From Stigmatella aurantiaca (GTDB lineage: Bacteria; Myxococcota; Myxococcia; Myxococcales; Myxococcaceae): DNA of 64,000 nt. Shown here piece by piece: positions 6,257 to 31,004 of the stretch. Positions within the stretch are counted from its first letter, which is position 1, and each line of letters opens with the position of its first letter. The translations under genes were made by a program, and so were the position numbers. The notes under the pieces are model-generated. The model did no database searches. It was not told the DNA's origin and worked only from the letters and a program-made list of their open reading frames with translations. The stretch is taken from NCBI RefSeq assembly GCF_900109545.1, contig NZ_FOAP01000013.1, positions 124,001 through 188,000 of the forward strand, in the 5' to 3' direction.

Positions 6257-7597
6257 ATGAGCCGATCCGCGTCTGGACGTTCTCGCCGCGTCGCCTACAT
6301 GATGTCGTGGTTCCCGGCGGTCACCGAGACGTTCATCCTTTATGAGATCCTCGAGCTGGAGCGGCTGGGGGTTCACGTGGAGGTGTTTCCGCTGTTCGGC
6401 CGCCACGGCACGGTGAAGCACCCGGGCGCCAACAAGCTGATCGCCCGGGCGCACTACCGGCGGATGTTCTCCTGGGCCCTGCTGTCCGCCCAGCTCTACT
6501 GGCTGTGGCACAGCCCCCTGCGCTACCTGGGCGCATGGTGGATGGCGCTCGTGGGCAACTGGCGCTCGTGGGGCTTCCTGGTGCGCTCGCTCGTGGTGAT
6601 TCCCAAGGCCATGCTCTTCGCGCGCGAGATGCAGCGGCTTCAGATCGAACACATCCACGCGCACTGGGCCACCCACCCGACGCTGGCGGCGCTCGTCATC
6701 CAGCGCATGACGGGGCTGAACTTCAGCTTCACCTGCCATGCGCATGACCTGTTCATCGACCGGACGATGCTCGACCAGAAGCTGGCGGCGGCCTCGTTCG
6801 CGGTGACCATCTCCGAGTTCAACCGGAAGCTGCTGAGCGACCTCTACGGCGAGGAGGCCGCCCGGAAGATCATCGTGGTGCGCTGCGGGGTGGACCAGGA
6901 CATCTTCCGTCCCCGTCCGCGTGCCCGGACCTCGCAGGTGCCCATCATCCTGTGCGTGGCGAGCCTCCGGGACTACAAGGGCCACTCCCACCTCATCGAG
7001 GCGTGCCGCCAGCTCAAGGAGGCGGGCACGCGCTTCCGGTGCCTGCTGGTGGGCGATGGCCCCCTGCGGCGGCAGCTCGAGGCAGAGGCCGTGGCCGCGG
7101 GCGTTCGGGCCGAGGTCGAGTTCCTGGGCAGCCGCCGCCGCAACGAGGTGGCCGCGCTGATGGCCCGGGCGGACGTGGTCGTCCAGCCCAGCGTGGTGGC
7201 CTCCTCGGGGCAGATGGAGGGCATTCCCGTGTCGCTCATGGAGGCGCTGGCGAGCGAGGCGCCCGTGGTGGCCACCCGCATCTCGGCCATTCCGGAACTC
7301 ATCCGCGATGAGGAGACGGGGCTGCTGGTGCCCGAGAAGGATCCGCGCGCGCTGTGTGTCGCCCTGCTGCGCGTGCTCAGCGACCGGAACCTGGCCCAGC
7401 GGCTGGGCCGCAACGGCCGCCGCTGGGTGCTGCAGCACTTCAACCTGCGCGGCAACGTCGTCCGGTTGGCCGAGAGCCTCGCGGCGCTGCCTCCGGCTTC
7501 CGCCCGGCCATTGGAGACGGCCGAGAAGCCCAAGGCCCGTCACACGCGGGGCTCCCGCCGGGCGAAGCCGCGCGTACGGTCCGAGAAAGGGGTCTGA
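6257..7597 (+). CDS. GT4-family glycosyltransferase, exopolysaccharide (WcaL-like) type
   Basis: 446 residues starting at ATG 6257 with GAGGAG at 6245-6250, overlapping the stop codon of the upstream gene. The N-terminus SWFPAVTETFILYEILELE and the motifs HIHAHWATHP and SFTCHAHDLF are those of the colanic-acid/WcaL-type subgroup of GT4 enzymes; the C-terminal domain has LVGDGPLRRQLEAEA and MEGIPVSLMEALASEAPVV with the EX7E pair. About residues 70-110 contain hydrophobic stretches (WALLSAQLYWLWHSPLRYLG) that may be membrane-associated. The C-terminal 30 residues are Arg/Lys-rich. Second gene of the glycosyltransferase operon; it converges closely with the lipoprotein gene at 7604. Confidence 0.87.
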   Translation: MSRSASGRSRRVAYMMSWFPAVTETFILYEILELERLGVHVEVFPLFGRHGTVKHPGANKLIARAHYRRMFSWALLSAQLYWLWHSPLRYLGAWWMALVGNWRSWGFLVRSLVVIPKAMLFAREMQRLQIEHIHAHWATHPTLAALVIQRMTGLNFSFTCHAHDLFIDRTMLDQKLAAASFAVTISEFNRKLLSDLYGEEAARKIIVVRCGVDQDIFRPRPRARTSQVPIILCVASLRDYKGHSHLIEACRQLKEAGTRFRCLLVGDGPLRRQLEAEAVAAGVRAEVEFLGSRRRNEVAALMARADVVVQPSVVASSGQMEGIPVSLMEALASEAPVVATRISAIPELIRDEETGLLVPEKDPRALCVALLRVLSDRNLAQRLGRNGRRWVLQHFNLRGNVVRLAESLAALPPASARPLETAEKPKARHTRGSRRAKPRVRSEKGV

Positions 7598-25773: not shown

Positions 25774-28113
25774 TCAGGTGCTGGCGCGGCGGGGCAGGCG
25801 CACCGTGAAGGTTGTCCCGCCCTGCTCGCTGGAGGCCACCTCGATGCTGCCCCCGTGGCCCCCGAGGATGGCGCGGACGATGTACAGCCCCAGGCCGATG
25901 CTGCGGTTGGGCTGGGCCTCGCCGGGCAGCCCCCGGGTGAGCGGCTCGAAGAGCCGGGGCAGCAGCTCGGTGGGGATGGGCGCGCCCTGGTTGTGCACCT
26001 CGAGCCGGGCGCCGTCCGCCTCCCCGAAGGTGCTCACCCGCACGGGCGTGTGGGCGGGGCTGTAGGCCAGCGCGTTGCCCAGCAGGTTGGTCAGCACCTG
26101 GGCAATGCGGTCCGAGTCCCATTCACCCCACCCCTCGCCGCTCGACTCCACGTGGACGTGGCGCCCCGGGTGGGCCAGCAGCACCTCGTCCACCACATGG
26201 CGCGTCACCTCGTGCAGGTCCATGGGGTGGCGGTTCAGGGGGATGCCGGTGCCCAGGCGCGCCTGGGTGAAGTCCAGCAGGTCGCGGATGAGGCGCGTGG
26301 CGCGCTCGCCCGAGGAGGCGATGCGCTGGGCGGCGCGGCGCTGGCGCTCGTCCAGGCCGGGGTGCGCCAGGAGCATGCCGGCCGCCATGGAGATGGCGCC
26401 CAGGGGGTTGCGCAAGTCGTGGGACACGATGCCGATGAGCTGCTGCTCGAACTCGGTCCGGCGGCGCAGCTCCTCCTGGGAGCGCAGCTGCTGCTGGAAC
26501 AGGCGCGCGTTCTCGATGGACATGGCCGCCTTGCCGGCCAGCTCCTCCATGAGCCGCAGCTCCTCCGGGGTGAAGGCGAGGCCCGGCGCGGAGCGCGCGG
26601 TGGCCAGCGTGCCGATGATGCGCCCCTGCGCCCACAGGGGCACCACGAGGCACGTCTGCAGGGGGATGCGCTCCAGCGAGACGCGGTACTCCGGCTGGAG
26701 CCGGGCGCCCAGCTCCACGGGGGACACGGTGGGGATGAGCACGGAGCGGCCCGTCTGGGCCACCTCGCCCAGGAGCCCCTCGCCCAGCCGCGCGGGGTGC
26801 TCCTCCAGGAGCCGCAGGAGGAACGCCTGGTGCCCGGGCTCCACGTGGCGCACGGAGACGAGCTCCATGCGCTGCCCGTCCTCGGACAGCAGGTGCAGGA
26901 CGCTGGAGTCCCCCATGTGCCGCACCACCTGGTGCGAGACGGCGTCGAACAGCGCGGGCAGGTCCCGGTTGGCGGCGCTGAACGCGTCGGTGGCCTCGGC
27001 GAGCACCTTGAGGCGCGCGGCGGCGTTGCGCACCCGCTCGTGCGCGAGCCGCTCCTCGTCATACAGGCGCGCCCGGTCGATGGCCTGGGCACTGATGTGG
27101 GCCACGGCGTTGAGGAAGGCCCGGTCGTCCTCGCTGAAGGTGCGCTCCTGGGGGAACCCCAGCCCGAGCACGCCGATGGCCTGGCCCTTGACGATGAGGG
27201 GCAGGGCCGCCAGCGAGGGGAAGCGCAGCGAGCCGGCCAGCGAGGGGTAGCGCGCGAGGCCCTCCGCGCGGGAGGACAGCCACTGGGGCCGGCCTTCCCG
27301 CACCGCCTCGGTCAGGGGCTGGGAGGAGGACAGGGGGATGCGCTCCAGCGCCGTCCGGGCCTCCGGGGCGTAGCCCACCGTCTCGACGAGCTCCAGCTCC
27401 TGCCGCGACGGGTCCAACAGGCACAGCGAGGTGGCGTTGGACTCCATCGTCACCAGGCCGTGCTCGAAGAGCGCCTGCACCACCTGGGCGACGGAGGTGG
27501 CCTCCGCCAGCAGCGAGGTGAGCGTCTGCAGCCGGGCGATGTAGTCCGCCGAGCGCGTGGCGGCCTCGCGCGCCTGGGCCTCCTGGTGGCGCAAGAGCTC
27601 CGCCTGGCGCCGCACCTGGCTCTGGGCGCGGAACAGCTCGATGAAGACGCTGACCTTGGAGCGCAGCACCTCGGGCGACAGGGGCTTGCGCAGGTAGTCC
27701 ACCGCGCCCTGCGCGTAGCCGGCCAGCACCTCCGTCTCGTCCTGCCCGTGGGCCGTCAGGAAGATGATGGGGATGTTGCGCGTGCGCTCGCGCTGCTTGA
27801 TGAGCGCGGCCGTCTCGTACCCGTTGAGGCCCGCCATCTGGACATCCAGAAGGATGACGGCGAACTCCTGGGCGAGCAGCAGCCGCAGCGCCTGCTCACC
27901 GGAGGGGGCCTTGGTCAGCCGGACGCCCAGCGGCTCGAGGATGGCCTCCAGGGCCACCAGGTTCGCGGGGTGGTCGTCGACCAGCAGCACGCCTGGCTCT
28001 TCGCCCTGTTGACGTGCGCCTCCCGGCACCGGCGAGGCCGGAACCCGCGCGGAGGCCGGGCCTTGCGCAGGCCAGCCGCTCAGCCACGGCTGGGGACGCA
28101 CGGTGGACGACAT
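25774..28113 (-). CDS. Hybrid sensor kinase: receiver-GAF-GAF-HisKA-HATPase
   Basis: 779 residues, ATG 28113 with GGAAAG upstream. An N-terminal receiver (about 41-155) has phosphoacceptor D90 in VILLDVQMAGLNGYE and K143 in RKPLS. A coiled-coil linker leads to two GAF domains (about 180-350 and 360-540). The kinase core has the phospho-His H565 in GIVSHDLRNPLG, an N box NLLGNALAYSP and a G box SIGLGLYIVRAI. No transmembrane segment, so it is cytoplasmic and senses an internal ligand. The receiver-first layout suggests it sits inside a phosphorelay. The DUF2378 gene and a lone receiver follow. Confidence 0.93.
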   Translation of the reverse strand: MSSTVRPQPWLSGWPAQGPASARVPASPVPGGARQQGEEPGVLLVDDHPANLVALEAILEPLGVRLTKAPSGEQALRLLLAQEFAVILLDVQMAGLNGYETAALIKQRERTRNIPIIFLTAHGQDETEVLAGYAQGAVDYLRKPLSPEVLRSKVSVFIELFRAQSQVRRQAELLRHQEAQAREAATRSADYIARLQTLTSLLAEATSVAQVVQALFEHGLVTMESNATSLCLLDPSRQELELVETVGYAPEARTALERIPLSSSQPLTEAVREGRPQWLSSRAEGLARYPSLAGSLRFPSLAALPLIVKGQAIGVLGLGFPQERTFSEDDRAFLNAVAHISAQAIDRARLYDEERLAHERVRNAAARLKVLAEATDAFSAANRDLPALFDAVSHQVVRHMGDSSVLHLLSEDGQRMELVSVRHVEPGHQAFLLRLLEEHPARLGEGLLGEVAQTGRSVLIPTVSPVELGARLQPEYRVSLERIPLQTCLVVPLWAQGRIIGTLATARSAPGLAFTPEELRLMEELAGKAAMSIENARLFQQQLRSQEELRRRTEFEQQLIGIVSHDLRNPLGAISMAAGMLLAHPGLDERQRRAAQRIASSGERATRLIRDLLDFTQARLGTGIPLNRHPMDLHEVTRHVVDEVLLAHPGRHVHVESSGEGWGEWDSDRIAQVLTNLLGNALAYSPAHTPVRVSTFGEADGARLEVHNQGAPIPTELLPRLFEPLTRGLPGEAQPNRSIGLGLYIVRAILGGHGGSIEVASSEQGGTTFTVRLPRRAST

Positions 28114-28301
28114 CTTCTTTCCAGGCTGGAGCACCGACGGCCTTTCCTTCCTTCTCACCAGGAGCATACCCGCCACGCCTTGCGGGCGAAGGAAGCAACA
28201 TCCCAGGAAGGCTCGAACTGACGAAAGGGCCCTGCCGCCCGCTGCTCTTGCCTGGACGTGCGGCGGCCGGCCCAGCAGAAGCCCCGAGTCGGAAAGGACT
28301 C

Positions 28302-28760
28302 TCAGGGAATGGAGATGAGCTCCACGTCGAAGACGAGCACCGACTGGGGGGGAATGGCCCCGACGCTCCGGTTTCCATACCCCAGGGAGGAGGGCAGGAC
28401 GAGGCGGCGCACCCCGCCCACCTTCATGCCCGGGATGCCCTGCTCCCACCCGGCGATGACATCCCCCCGGCCCGGGGTGAAGGAGAACGGCGTCCGGTTG
28501 CGGCTGCTGTCGAACTGGGAGCCGTTGGGCAGCCAGCCCGTGTAGTGCACCGTCACGGGGCGGCCGGAGACGGCCACCGCCCCGGTGCCCTCCGTCTTGT
28601 CCTGGAGGTAGAGCCCGCTGTCGAGCCGCTGCATGGCGGCCAGGTCCACGCCGAGCGCGGGGGCATACGTCACCTGGGTGGGGTCTCCGGAGCCGGGCGA
28701 GTCCTCCTCCCCACATCCCAGCAACCACACCAACGGAAGGGCCAGCAACAGACGGGTCAT
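28302..28760 (-). CDS. FKBP-type peptidyl-prolyl isomerase, lipoprotein
   Basis: 152 residues from ATG 28760 (GAGG upstream). Lipoprotein signal LVWLLGC, Cys16. The mature part is a single FKBP domain with the usual active-site blocks VTVHYTGWLPNGSQFDSS, VIAGWEQGIPGMKVGG and SSLGYGNRSVGAIPPQSVLVFDVEL. It would catalyse proline isomerisation of exported proteins at the cell envelope. It lies upstream of the hybrid kinase with 188 bases between. Confidence 0.92.
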   Translation of the reverse strand: MTRLLLALPLVWLLGCGEEDSPGSGDPTQVTYAPALGVDLAAMQRLDSGLYLQDKTEGTGAVAVSGRPVTVHYTGWLPNGSQFDSSRNRTPFSFTPGRGDVIAGWEQGIPGMKVGGVRRLVLPSSLGYGNRSVGAIPPQSVLVFDVELISIP

Positions 28761-28917
28761 CGGAACCTCAGGGCAGCGGCAGCGCCGCGGAGAAGGGAAC
28801 GTACCAGGGGGCCCCCACGGGCCCCTTGGAGGGAACGCGAGGGGCTGGTTAGACTGCTTCATATTCGAGGAGGCGGCAGGTTACCCGCTCCCTCTTCCGA
28901 GGGTGGAGGAGCTGGGT

Positions 28918-30012
28918 GTGAACTCACCGAAGTTCTCGTTGCTCTCCCAGGGGCTGGAGCACGTGCTGGCGGGCCGTCTGGACGAGGCGGACCGGACACT
29001 CGCTTCGCTCCGGGCACGGCTGGATGTGGACGCGCACGCCGAGGACATGCAGTACCTCCTCTTCGCCGCGGCGCTCTCGAAGCGCCTGGGCGGCGAGTCC
29101 GCCGCGGAGTTCAACCTCTACCGGCGCCGCTTCGAGCAGTCGCAGATTGGCCTCTTCAGCCTGCTGTCCTCGAAGCTGCCGTTCGTCTCCATGTCGAGCG
29201 CCATCGCCAACGAGATGCTGACGGGCTTCATCCGCGGGCATGAGGCCGTCACCCTGCTGGATGTCGGCATTGGCCGGGGCCTGCAGGAGGTGGCGCTGCT
29301 GCACCGGCTGGCCGAGGCGGATGCGCTCCCCCAGCGCCTCCACGTCTTCGCGGTGGAGCCGGATCCGGACTCCCTGAGCACGGCGCGCGAGGCGCTGAGC
29401 GCGGCGGCGCAGCGGCTGGGGGTGTCCTTCCGCTTCCACGGCGTCACGTGCGTGGCGGAGGACATGACCGAGGAGCACTGGCGGCTCCTGGAGAGCCTGC
29501 CGGGGTGCCGGCTCGCCACCGCCTCCTTCGCGCTGCACCACATCGCCGAGCGCCCCGCGCCCGCGCCGGATGCGCGCGAGGGCTTCTTCCAGCGGCTCGC
29601 GCAGTGGGCCCCCGCGGGCGTGGTGCTGTGCGAGCCCAGCTCCAACCACCACCGGGTGGCCCTGGGCGAGCGCTTCCAGAACGCCTGGCGCCACTACGGC
29701 TTCATCTTCCAGCTCCTGGAGGAACTGGACATCTCCCGGCAGGAGAAGAACGCCATCAAGCTGTTCTTCAGCCGCGAGGTGGAGGACATCCTCGGCACCG
29801 AGGAGGAGACGCAGCGCTCGGAGCGGCATGAGCCCGCGGGCGCCTGGCTGGGGCGACTGGAGCGCACCGGCTTCCAGCCCACGTCCGGGCTGGAGAAGCC
29901 CTGGCCCGCCGCGCACCCGGCCATCGCCGTGCGCCCCCACACGGGGTACGTGGGGCTGGAGTACCGCGAGGAGACCATCGTGGCCATCCTCTGCGCCCGC
30001 GCCGCGGCATGA
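28918..30012 (+). CDS. Bacterial GRAS-family (methyltransferase-fold) protein
   Basis: 364 residues. The start is GTG 28918, with AGGAG seven bases upstream. The Rossmann core begins VTLLDVGIGRGLQEVALLH (111-129), equivalent to the plant GRAS VHIID block, and continues HVFAVEPDPDSL. Further on, VVLCEPSSNHHR with RFQNAWRHYGFIFQLLEELD corresponds to the PFYRE region, and RSERHEPAGAWLGRLERTGF (from R300) to the end of PFYRE and the SAW region. Bacterial GRAS proteins were described by Aravind and colleagues as methyltransferase relatives ancestral to plant gibberellin-response regulators. Its stop overlaps the start of pncC (ATGA), so the two are translationally coupled. Substrate unknown. Confidence 0.82.
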   Translation: MNSPKFSLLSQGLEHVLAGRLDEADRTLASLRARLDVDAHAEDMQYLLFAAALSKRLGGESAAEFNLYRRRFEQSQIGLFSLLSSKLPFVSMSSAIANEMLTGFIRGHEAVTLLDVGIGRGLQEVALLHRLAEADALPQRLHVFAVEPDPDSLSTAREALSAAAQRLGVSFRFHGVTCVAEDMTEEHWRLLESLPGCRLATASFALHHIAERPAPAPDAREGFFQRLAQWAPAGVVLCEPSSNHHRVALGERFQNAWRHYGFIFQLLEELDISRQEKNAIKLFFSREVEDILGTEEETQRSERHEPAGAWLGRLERTGFQPTSGLEKPWPAAHPAIAVRPHTGYVGLEYREETIVAILCARAAA

Positions 30013-30509
30013 GCGCTCCTGCCGGGCTGGAGGCGCAGGCCCGCGTGGTGCTGGCGCGCTGCCGCGAGGCCCGGGTGCGGCTGGCGCTCGCCGAGGCCTG
30101 CACCGGGGGGCTCATCGCCGCGAGCCTCACGGAGGTGCCGGGTGCCTCGGCCGTGCTGGAGCGCGCCCTCGTGCCCTACTCCAACGAGTCCAAGGAGGAG
30201 CTGCTGGGGGTGCCCGGGGCGCTGATGCGCGAGCACGGCGCCGTCAGCGCGGAGGTGGCCCGGGCGATGGCCGAGGGGCTGCTGGCCCGGGCCCCCGTGG
30301 CGCTGGCCCTGGCCGAGACGGGCATCGCCGGCCCCGGGGGCGGCTCCCCGCTCAAGCCGGTGGGGCTGGTCTTCCTCGCCCTGGCCCGCCGGGGGGGCGC
30401 GTCCGTGGTGGAGCGGCACGTTTTCCCGGGAGATCGGGCTGCCATCCGCCAGGCGGCGGCGGCGCGCGGGCTGGCCCTGTTCCTTGAGGGTTTCGCCGAA
30501 AAGTCGTAG
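30009..30509 (+). CDS. pncC: Nicotinamide-nucleotide amidohydrolase (CinA C-terminal family)
   Basis: 166 residues, the length of stand-alone PncC proteins. Signature blocks are LAEACTGGLIAASLTEVPGAS with the nucleophilic serine/threonine region, YSNESKEELLGVP and TGIAGPGGGSPLKPVG. The enzyme deamidates NMN to nicotinic acid mononucleotide, recycling NAD breakdown products such as those made by DNA ligase. The ATG at 30009 overlaps the stop of the GRAS gene. There is no N-terminal MoaB-like CinA domain. Confidence 0.92.
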   Translation: MSAPAGLEAQARVVLARCREARVRLALAEACTGGLIAASLTEVPGASAVLERALVPYSNESKEELLGVPGALMREHGAVSAEVARAMAEGLLARAPVALALAETGIAGPGGGSPLKPVGLVFLALARRGGASVVERHVFPGDRAAIRQAAAARGLALFLEGFAEKS

Positions 30510-30614
30510 AGAAAGCGCGCGGAGCCTACATTCCCGTCCGGATACCGTCTTGCCGGTTGTGGAAAGTAAAGTGAGCCCTTACCCCTTCGTCAGACGGTGA
30601 GCGGGAGGATCGAA

Positions 30615-31004
30615 GTGTACGAACTCCAAATCGACAGGGGACACGCCATCGTGGACTTCATCCTCGATGGCTACATCCGCGTGGAGGAGATGCAGCGCTT
30701 CGTGGCGGACCTGCGGGTGGCGACGCAGAGCCTCACGGGCCGGGAAATCAAGATCAAAGCGGACCTGCGCACCTTCAAGCCCGCCTCGCCCGAGGCGGCG
30801 CAGATGATTCGCGAGGTGCAGGAGTTTGGCCTGCGCTCGGGTGTGAAGCGGGTAGCGGAGCTGGTGGAGAGCCAGATTGTCGCGCTGCAGCTCAACCGCC
30901 TGGCCCGCGAGAGCGGCACGGACAAGATTCTGCGCCGCTTCTGGGAAGAGGCCTCCGCGCGCCAGTGGCTCATCCACGGCGACACGGACGACGACAAGCC
31001 CTGA
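30615..31004 (+). CDS. STAS/SpoIIAA-like protein
   Basis: 129 residues from GTG 30615, six bases behind GGGAGG; a GTG six codons upstream is weaker. The secondary-structure order (strand ELQIDRGHAIVDFILDGYI, helix VEEMQRFVADLR, strand EIKIKADLRTF, helix AAQMIREVQEFG, strand RVAELVESQ) is that of STAS-like alpha/beta folds seen in many small myxobacterial proteins. There is no serine at a clear phosphorylation site. Function unknown; the protein at 43598-44050 has the same topology. Confidence 0.62.
   Translation: MYELQIDRGHAIVDFILDGYIRVEEMQRFVADLRVATQSLTGREIKIKADLRTFKPASPEAAQMIREVQEFGLRSGVKRVAELVESQIVALQLNRLARESGTDKILRRFWEEASARQWLIHGDTDDDKP

Follow-up and report, generated by a model that had tools for sequence, protein, structure and literature searches.

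A GRAS gene in a conserved Myxococcaceae three-gene unit with a PncC homologue that lacks the catalytic serine

Plant GRAS proteins are transcription regulators, and most are held to be non-catalytic. Two reports hold that they derive from bacterial GRAS proteins (PMC5332381, PMC6232258). A 2012 study of bacterial GRAS by Zhang, Iyer and Aravind is credited, in papers that cite it, with methyltransferase hits and a bacterial methylase origin for the family (PMC4279901, PMC6232258), and another plant paper, citing the same study, mentions methylase activity of GRAS in bacteria (PMC7290968). Among the matches listed, no paper names a ligand or substrate of bacterial GRAS, and a search for literature on a GRAS domain in myxobacteria found none.

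The second relevant system is the C-terminal NMN deamidase domain of the PncC/CinA family. Ser31 and Lys63 of AtCinA form a proposed dyad and the S31A mutant is inactive (PMC5384747), and EcPncC S29A, an engineered protein tried as an NMN probe, is inactive yet binds NMN with a Kd of 37-64 uM and NaMN similarly, with binding abolished by Y56A and R142A (PMC8231969). For Thermus CinA, a mechanism using Lys and Thr instead of Ser is proposed (PMC4246079). Literature linking CinA, NMN and pseudoenzymes was searched for and none was found. A third group comprises the SpoIIAA-like/DUF3478 STAS-fold proteins represented by 2q3l.

We analysed a locus within a window of 64,000 nucleotides, the whole stretch of Stigmatella aurantiaca DNA under study, where genes related to these three groups lie in a row. 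The GRAS protein shares sequence, fold, SAM motif and the RxERHE..W motif with the bacterial branch of PF03514, and differs in its coupling to two further genes, pncC and one for a SpoIIAA-like protein. Its PncC neighbour has the domain family, Lys base, Thr and Gly loop in common with AtCinA (2A9S) and EcPncC, and its clade also has their Tyr/Arg/Ser phosphate site, but 52 of the 55 members of that clade have Ala in place of the catalytic Ser. The third product, p135, has the 2q3l fold. Titles and abstract openings of the matches listed contain no description of such a GRAS-pncC-p135 unit.

The GRAS protein and its conserved neighbours

Features of the locus are as follows.

28302 to 28862, minus strand: FKBP-type peptidyl-prolyl isomerase, a divergent neighbour outside the conserved unit (PF00254)
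28918 to 30012, plus strand: GRAS-family protein with SAM-methyltransferase fold, 364 aa, GTG start (PF03514, AlphaFold2 model, fold matches)
30009 to 30012, plus strand: ATGA, overlap of the GRAS stop and pncC start (sequence)
30009 to 30509, plus strand: stand-alone PncC/CinA-C domain protein, 166 aa, a probable pseudo-deamidase (PF02464, residue counts, tree)
30096 to 30098, plus strand: GCC codon of Ala30, matching AtCinA Ser31/EcPncC Ser29 (sequence, alignment to 2a9s)
30597 to 31004, plus strand: SpoIIAA-like (STAS-fold) protein p135, 135 aa (position after pncC, model, 2q3l match)

The first gene of the unit is an open frame preceded by a GGAGGAG stretch, with a GTG start consistent with aligned homologues. 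Its product is a true GRAS protein. The initial annotation had made this identification and called for a profile search, which returned PF03514 over residues 8-323 (129.1 bits, Pfam cut-off 27), no other Pfam family above its cut-off, ordinary methyltransferase families included, and no NCBIfam model above cut-off. With E of 1 or below, matches were obtained to 12 distinct PDB sequences, each a GRAS protein by name (DELLA/RGA, SCL3, SCARECROW, NSP2 and rice GRAS). An AlphaFold2 model, for which 29 aligned sequences served as input, had a mean pLDDT of 90.2, and plant SCL3, SCL7, RGA and SHR/SCR ranked top against it with Z of 35.4-39.3 over 339-354 residues (Foldseek, VIA-align). The match to 6kpb (Z 39.3, 352 residues) shows nearly the whole chain to be a plant GRAS fold; the best non-GRAS methyltransferase reached Z 19.4 over 208 residues. 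Assignment of the product to an ordinary methyltransferase family is ruled out by the Pfam GRAS match and the structure matches to plant GRAS.

The string RSERHE...W..R...TGF, singled out earlier, does occur in the product and can be aligned to plant DELLA proteins. Within it RSERHEPAGAW corresponds to the RxERHE..W motif, and E302, E305, W310 and R313 are kept in all 44 GRAS proteins linked to pncC. The same is true of D115, G117 and G119 of the Gly-rich SAM-binding motif and of an acidic residue (E/D) at position 147, after the second strand, while each of the 75 GRAS sequences in the comparison has H207 and E239. Plant members with this fold regulate transcription, and most of them are held to be non-catalytic; by analogy, the bacterial protein might lack catalysis and be a scaffold or regulator. 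Invariance of the SAM residues across the 44 linked proteins argues against this, as do two gene contexts described below, and we regard such a role as very unlikely.

GRAS occurred in 45 of 145 genomes of the order, all from five genera of Myxococcaceae, in none of 14 control genomes and in two further genomes of 195 drawn more widely from the phylum. A contig search for GRAS relatives yielded 43 loci with an alignment as query and none with a single sequence. Of these 45 genomes, all but G044 have a stand-alone pncC just downstream of GRAS, giving 44 linked loci. The adjacency first seen in the window thus recurs, in one family only, and so tells little about bacterial GRAS generally. The previously reported ATGA overlap also stands; with starts chosen by script, GRAS and pncC overlap by 4 bp at 32 of 44 loci and are 3 bp apart at two and 17-375 bp apart at ten. 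A gene of 129-152 aa follows pncC at all 39 linked loci whose contig reaches that far. FKBP adjoins GRAS at five of six linked loci in the genus of the window genome and UvrD comes next at four of the six, with neither at any of 38 linked loci elsewhere, some of which are on short contigs. Because these outer neighbours are kept only in that genus, the conserved entity is GRAS-pncC-p135, a three-gene unit of Myxococcaceae. Beside the unit, window 25774-28377 (minus strand) encodes a hybrid histidine kinase that has two GAF domains and a receiver. A promoter scan found no site, and Pfam identified no NAD-related gene besides pncC among eight window proteins scanned.

The linked GRAS proteins fall on one side of a weakly supported branch of the GRAS tree (SH-aLRT 62). 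In the stretches examined, no pncC accompanies another seven myxobacterial GRAS copies, the one in G044 and six that are second copies, and none was found at 27 GRAS-type loci that belong to other named taxa or to unplaced MAGs, of which L164 and L165 are doubtful and several are short.

Such an arrangement might serve expression only, with GRAS, the Ala-bearing PncC and the SpoIIAA-like protein sharing a promoter and having separate roles. The loci where GRAS and pncC are spaced by 3 or 17-375 bp would suit this reading, as would the many genomes with a Ser-less PncC and no GRAS. It sits less well with an order kept across five genera as outer neighbours differ, with the prevalent 4-bp overlap and with the recurrence of an overlap when another methyltransferase replaces GRAS (below); we judge it fairly unlikely.

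In the p135 model (pLDDT 80), strands and helices succeed one another much as in STAS domains. Its best structure match is 2q3l (DUF3478, SpoIIAA-like fold; E 2.7e-6, TM 0.68/0.72), followed by SpoIIAA proteins. PF11964 did not match window p135 at E 1 and scored 26.7 bits against a cut-off of 25 with the orthologue from G081. A relay role for p135 is a guess, and no anti-sigma factor was present by Pfam name among the eight window proteins scanned.

A PncC clade without the catalytic serine

The window PncC matched PF02464 with 168.6 bits (cut-off 23.5), and AtCinA 2A9S is its most similar solved structure. Its motif reads E-A-C-T-G-G: Ala30 replaces the catalytic Ser, and the Ser of the Ser/Lys dyad is absent. 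Counts and tree are based on 55 clade members of at least 150 aa, leaving out seven partial linked PncCs below 150 aa (L031, L037, L042, L052, L063, L076 and L080), all of which have Ala at this position (EACTGG or EASTGG), and omitting fragments in G060 and G064 and a third G075 match that are without the N-terminal part. Among the 55, the three that do not have Ala at this position have Ser in two cases, both from linked genomes (G109, G114), and Asp in the protein of G115. It is Ser in all 20 comparison PncC/CinA sequences, comprising 11 long CinA, seven sequences from outside the family and two from G092. The surrounding site is well kept: E29, G34, G45, S47, Y57, K62, T104, G105, G108, P109, G119 and R143 show no variation within the clade, T32 is retained in 51 members, and the residue after the Ser position is Cys or Ser in 54 and Gly in G079. 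The retained residues include the Tyr and Arg matching EcPncC Y56 and R142.

These observations bear on the suggestion that the GRAS partner is an NMN-recycling enzyme. That role is doubtful given the Ala substitution and a separate 425-aa CinA, with an intact ESCTGG motif, encoded in the same genome. The accompanying idea of a nicotinamide or nucleotide link fares better, since the binding residues are kept and the partner looks like a binder. Because EcPncC S29A is dead yet binding, and because Tyr and Arg are kept, the Ala-bearing PncC is probably a binder of NMN, NaMN or a close analogue and not a hydrolase. As judged from the alignment, it is probably the conserved natural counterpart of the EcPncC S29A NMN-binding mutant (PMC8231969). 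The substitution is the same at the matching site; in the window clade, unlike the engineered protein, Ala is natural and clade-conserved and adjoins a methyltransferase gene.

Lys and Thr are both retained, so activity of this PncC could remain. It might still be an amidase, perhaps for another substrate, through a Lys/Thr water mechanism or by use of the adjacent Cys/Ser, with GRAS methylating its substrate or product. In favour are the invariant K62 and T104, the near-universal Cys or Ser beside Ala, two returns to Ser on the tree and the Lys/Thr mechanism proposed for Thermus CinA (PMC4246079). Conversely, the S31A and S29A mutants are described as inactive despite the presence of Lys and Thr/Ser, and the clade includes Gly at the next position (G079) and Asp at the Ser position (G115). 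We consider retained amidase activity unlikely, and binding remains the favoured property of the Ala-bearing PncC.

Tree support for the 55-member clade was 100/95, from an alignment that includes the motif columns. The non-Ser state requires three changes on this tree; most simply, the catalytic Ser would have been lost once and regained twice. With dN/dS of 0.08-0.59, below 0.6 in all 16 pairs, pncC is under purifying selection and seems not to be in decay; the corresponding values were 0.12-0.44 for GRAS and 0.03-0.30 for p135.

Sixty-three genomes carry such a pncC or GRAS. GRAS and a p135 orthologue are both present in 41, p135 alone in three and neither in 16; the three with GRAS and no p135 are those where the pncC contig ends. 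Here p135 was scored present at 55% identity or more, and homologues of 42-46% in genus g7 were scored absent. Co-occurrence of GRAS and p135 gave a Fisher p of 2e-9 across the 63 genomes; with phylogeny considered, four independent pairs on well-supported branches (on average 2.8 same, 0 opposite) gave no significance (median p 0.25). Among the 16 genomes with PncC and neither GRAS nor a p135 orthologue, 15 have a non-Ser PncC and G092 has Ser. PncC would there have its own use or a partner elsewhere, and GRAS is not needed everywhere. In genus g7, the Ala-bearing PncC (L114, L115, L116) lies inside the g19 clade with no GRAS or p135 nearby, which looks like transfer of pncC alone.

Replacement and loss of GRAS, and GRAS in other gene contexts

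G081, from the genus of the window genome, has a 294-aa class-I methyltransferase between FKBP and pncC (L111:6731-7615, minus strand), which scores 52.3 bits with Methyltransf_11 and is not matched by GRAS at E 1. Two ATG codons stand side by side at the start of pncC, so that the methyltransferase stop overlaps this gene by either 4 or 1 bp. At E 1e-20 the methyltransferase has relatives in three other genomes of 96, in different places. In this single case GRAS is replaced by an unrelated methyltransferase, a non-orthologous swap. A class-I methyltransferase in the GRAS slot speaks against a scaffold role for GRAS, and its overlap with pncC against an order kept for expression only. In G044, a short frame just before pncC (L113, about 7053-7121, minus strand) ends in residues that match by eye the C-terminus of GRAS from G043; a GRAS gene seems to have been deleted here, leaving its C-terminal part. 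The other GRAS copy of G044 is located elsewhere and adjoins a P450 gene. In G083, FKBP and pncC are direct neighbours, separated by about 60 bp.

SAM-dependent methylation leaves homocysteine after SAH hydrolysis. Two distant GRAS genes adjoin genes of homocysteine-using families. In L163, from a Myxococcales MAG (L163:3653-7358), GRAS follows a homocysteine S-methyltransferase/MTHFR-domain gene, and a p135 homologue lies beyond GRAS on the opposite strand, the sole such case among the 27 GRAS-type loci from outside the family. In G166 (L122:5972-10367, minus strand), GRAS overlaps the gene of a PLP enzyme of Cys/Met metabolism, and PALP-CBS and PALP genes lie in the same row, which we read as transsulfuration and cysteine synthesis. 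Because homocysteine follows SAH hydrolysis, both contexts would fit a working methylase, more readily than a scaffold; two cases are no proof. Neighbours of GRAS in other phyla displayed no common theme among ten proteins scanned, four of which had no match; they included a 2-hydroxyacid dehydrogenase, a phosphotriesterase, a kinase and SpoIIE, an aminotransferase and a response regulator. Of six genomes with a second GRAS copy, two were examined, G109 and G104, and in both a DUF885 gene follows that copy (L048:4287-7190; L050:4498-7323, minus strand).

A proposed function for the unit

Our tentative preference, held at slightly less than even confidence, is that GRAS is a SAM-dependent small-molecule methyltransferase co-translated with a pseudo-deamidase as its ligand-binding partner, the SpoIIAA-like protein completing the unit. 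The PncC homologue, devoid of the Ser nucleophile, would bind NMN, NaMN or a close analogue with no hydrolysis, and would either present a pyridine-nucleotide-like substrate to GRAS or make methylation ligand-dependent. The STAS-fold protein might relay the ligand or methylation state. We infer that GRAS transfers methyl groups, that PncC binds the ligand, that the proteins form a complex and that the unit signals, and likewise infer substrate and regulation. A more specific form of this proposal, in which a silenced NMN deamidase is the NMN/NaMN-sensing or substrate-presenting subunit of the GRAS methyltransferase with output through the STAS fold, is an attractive if rather improbable possibility.

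A partner with an intact nucleotide pocket and no nucleophile narrows the search for a GRAS ligand to NMN, NaMN and close analogues. Furthermore, the annotation "nicotinamide-nucleotide amidase" may be wrong for members of the PncC family. If the proposal is true, it would give bacterial GRAS its first ligand and couple SAM-dependent methylation to NAD turnover.
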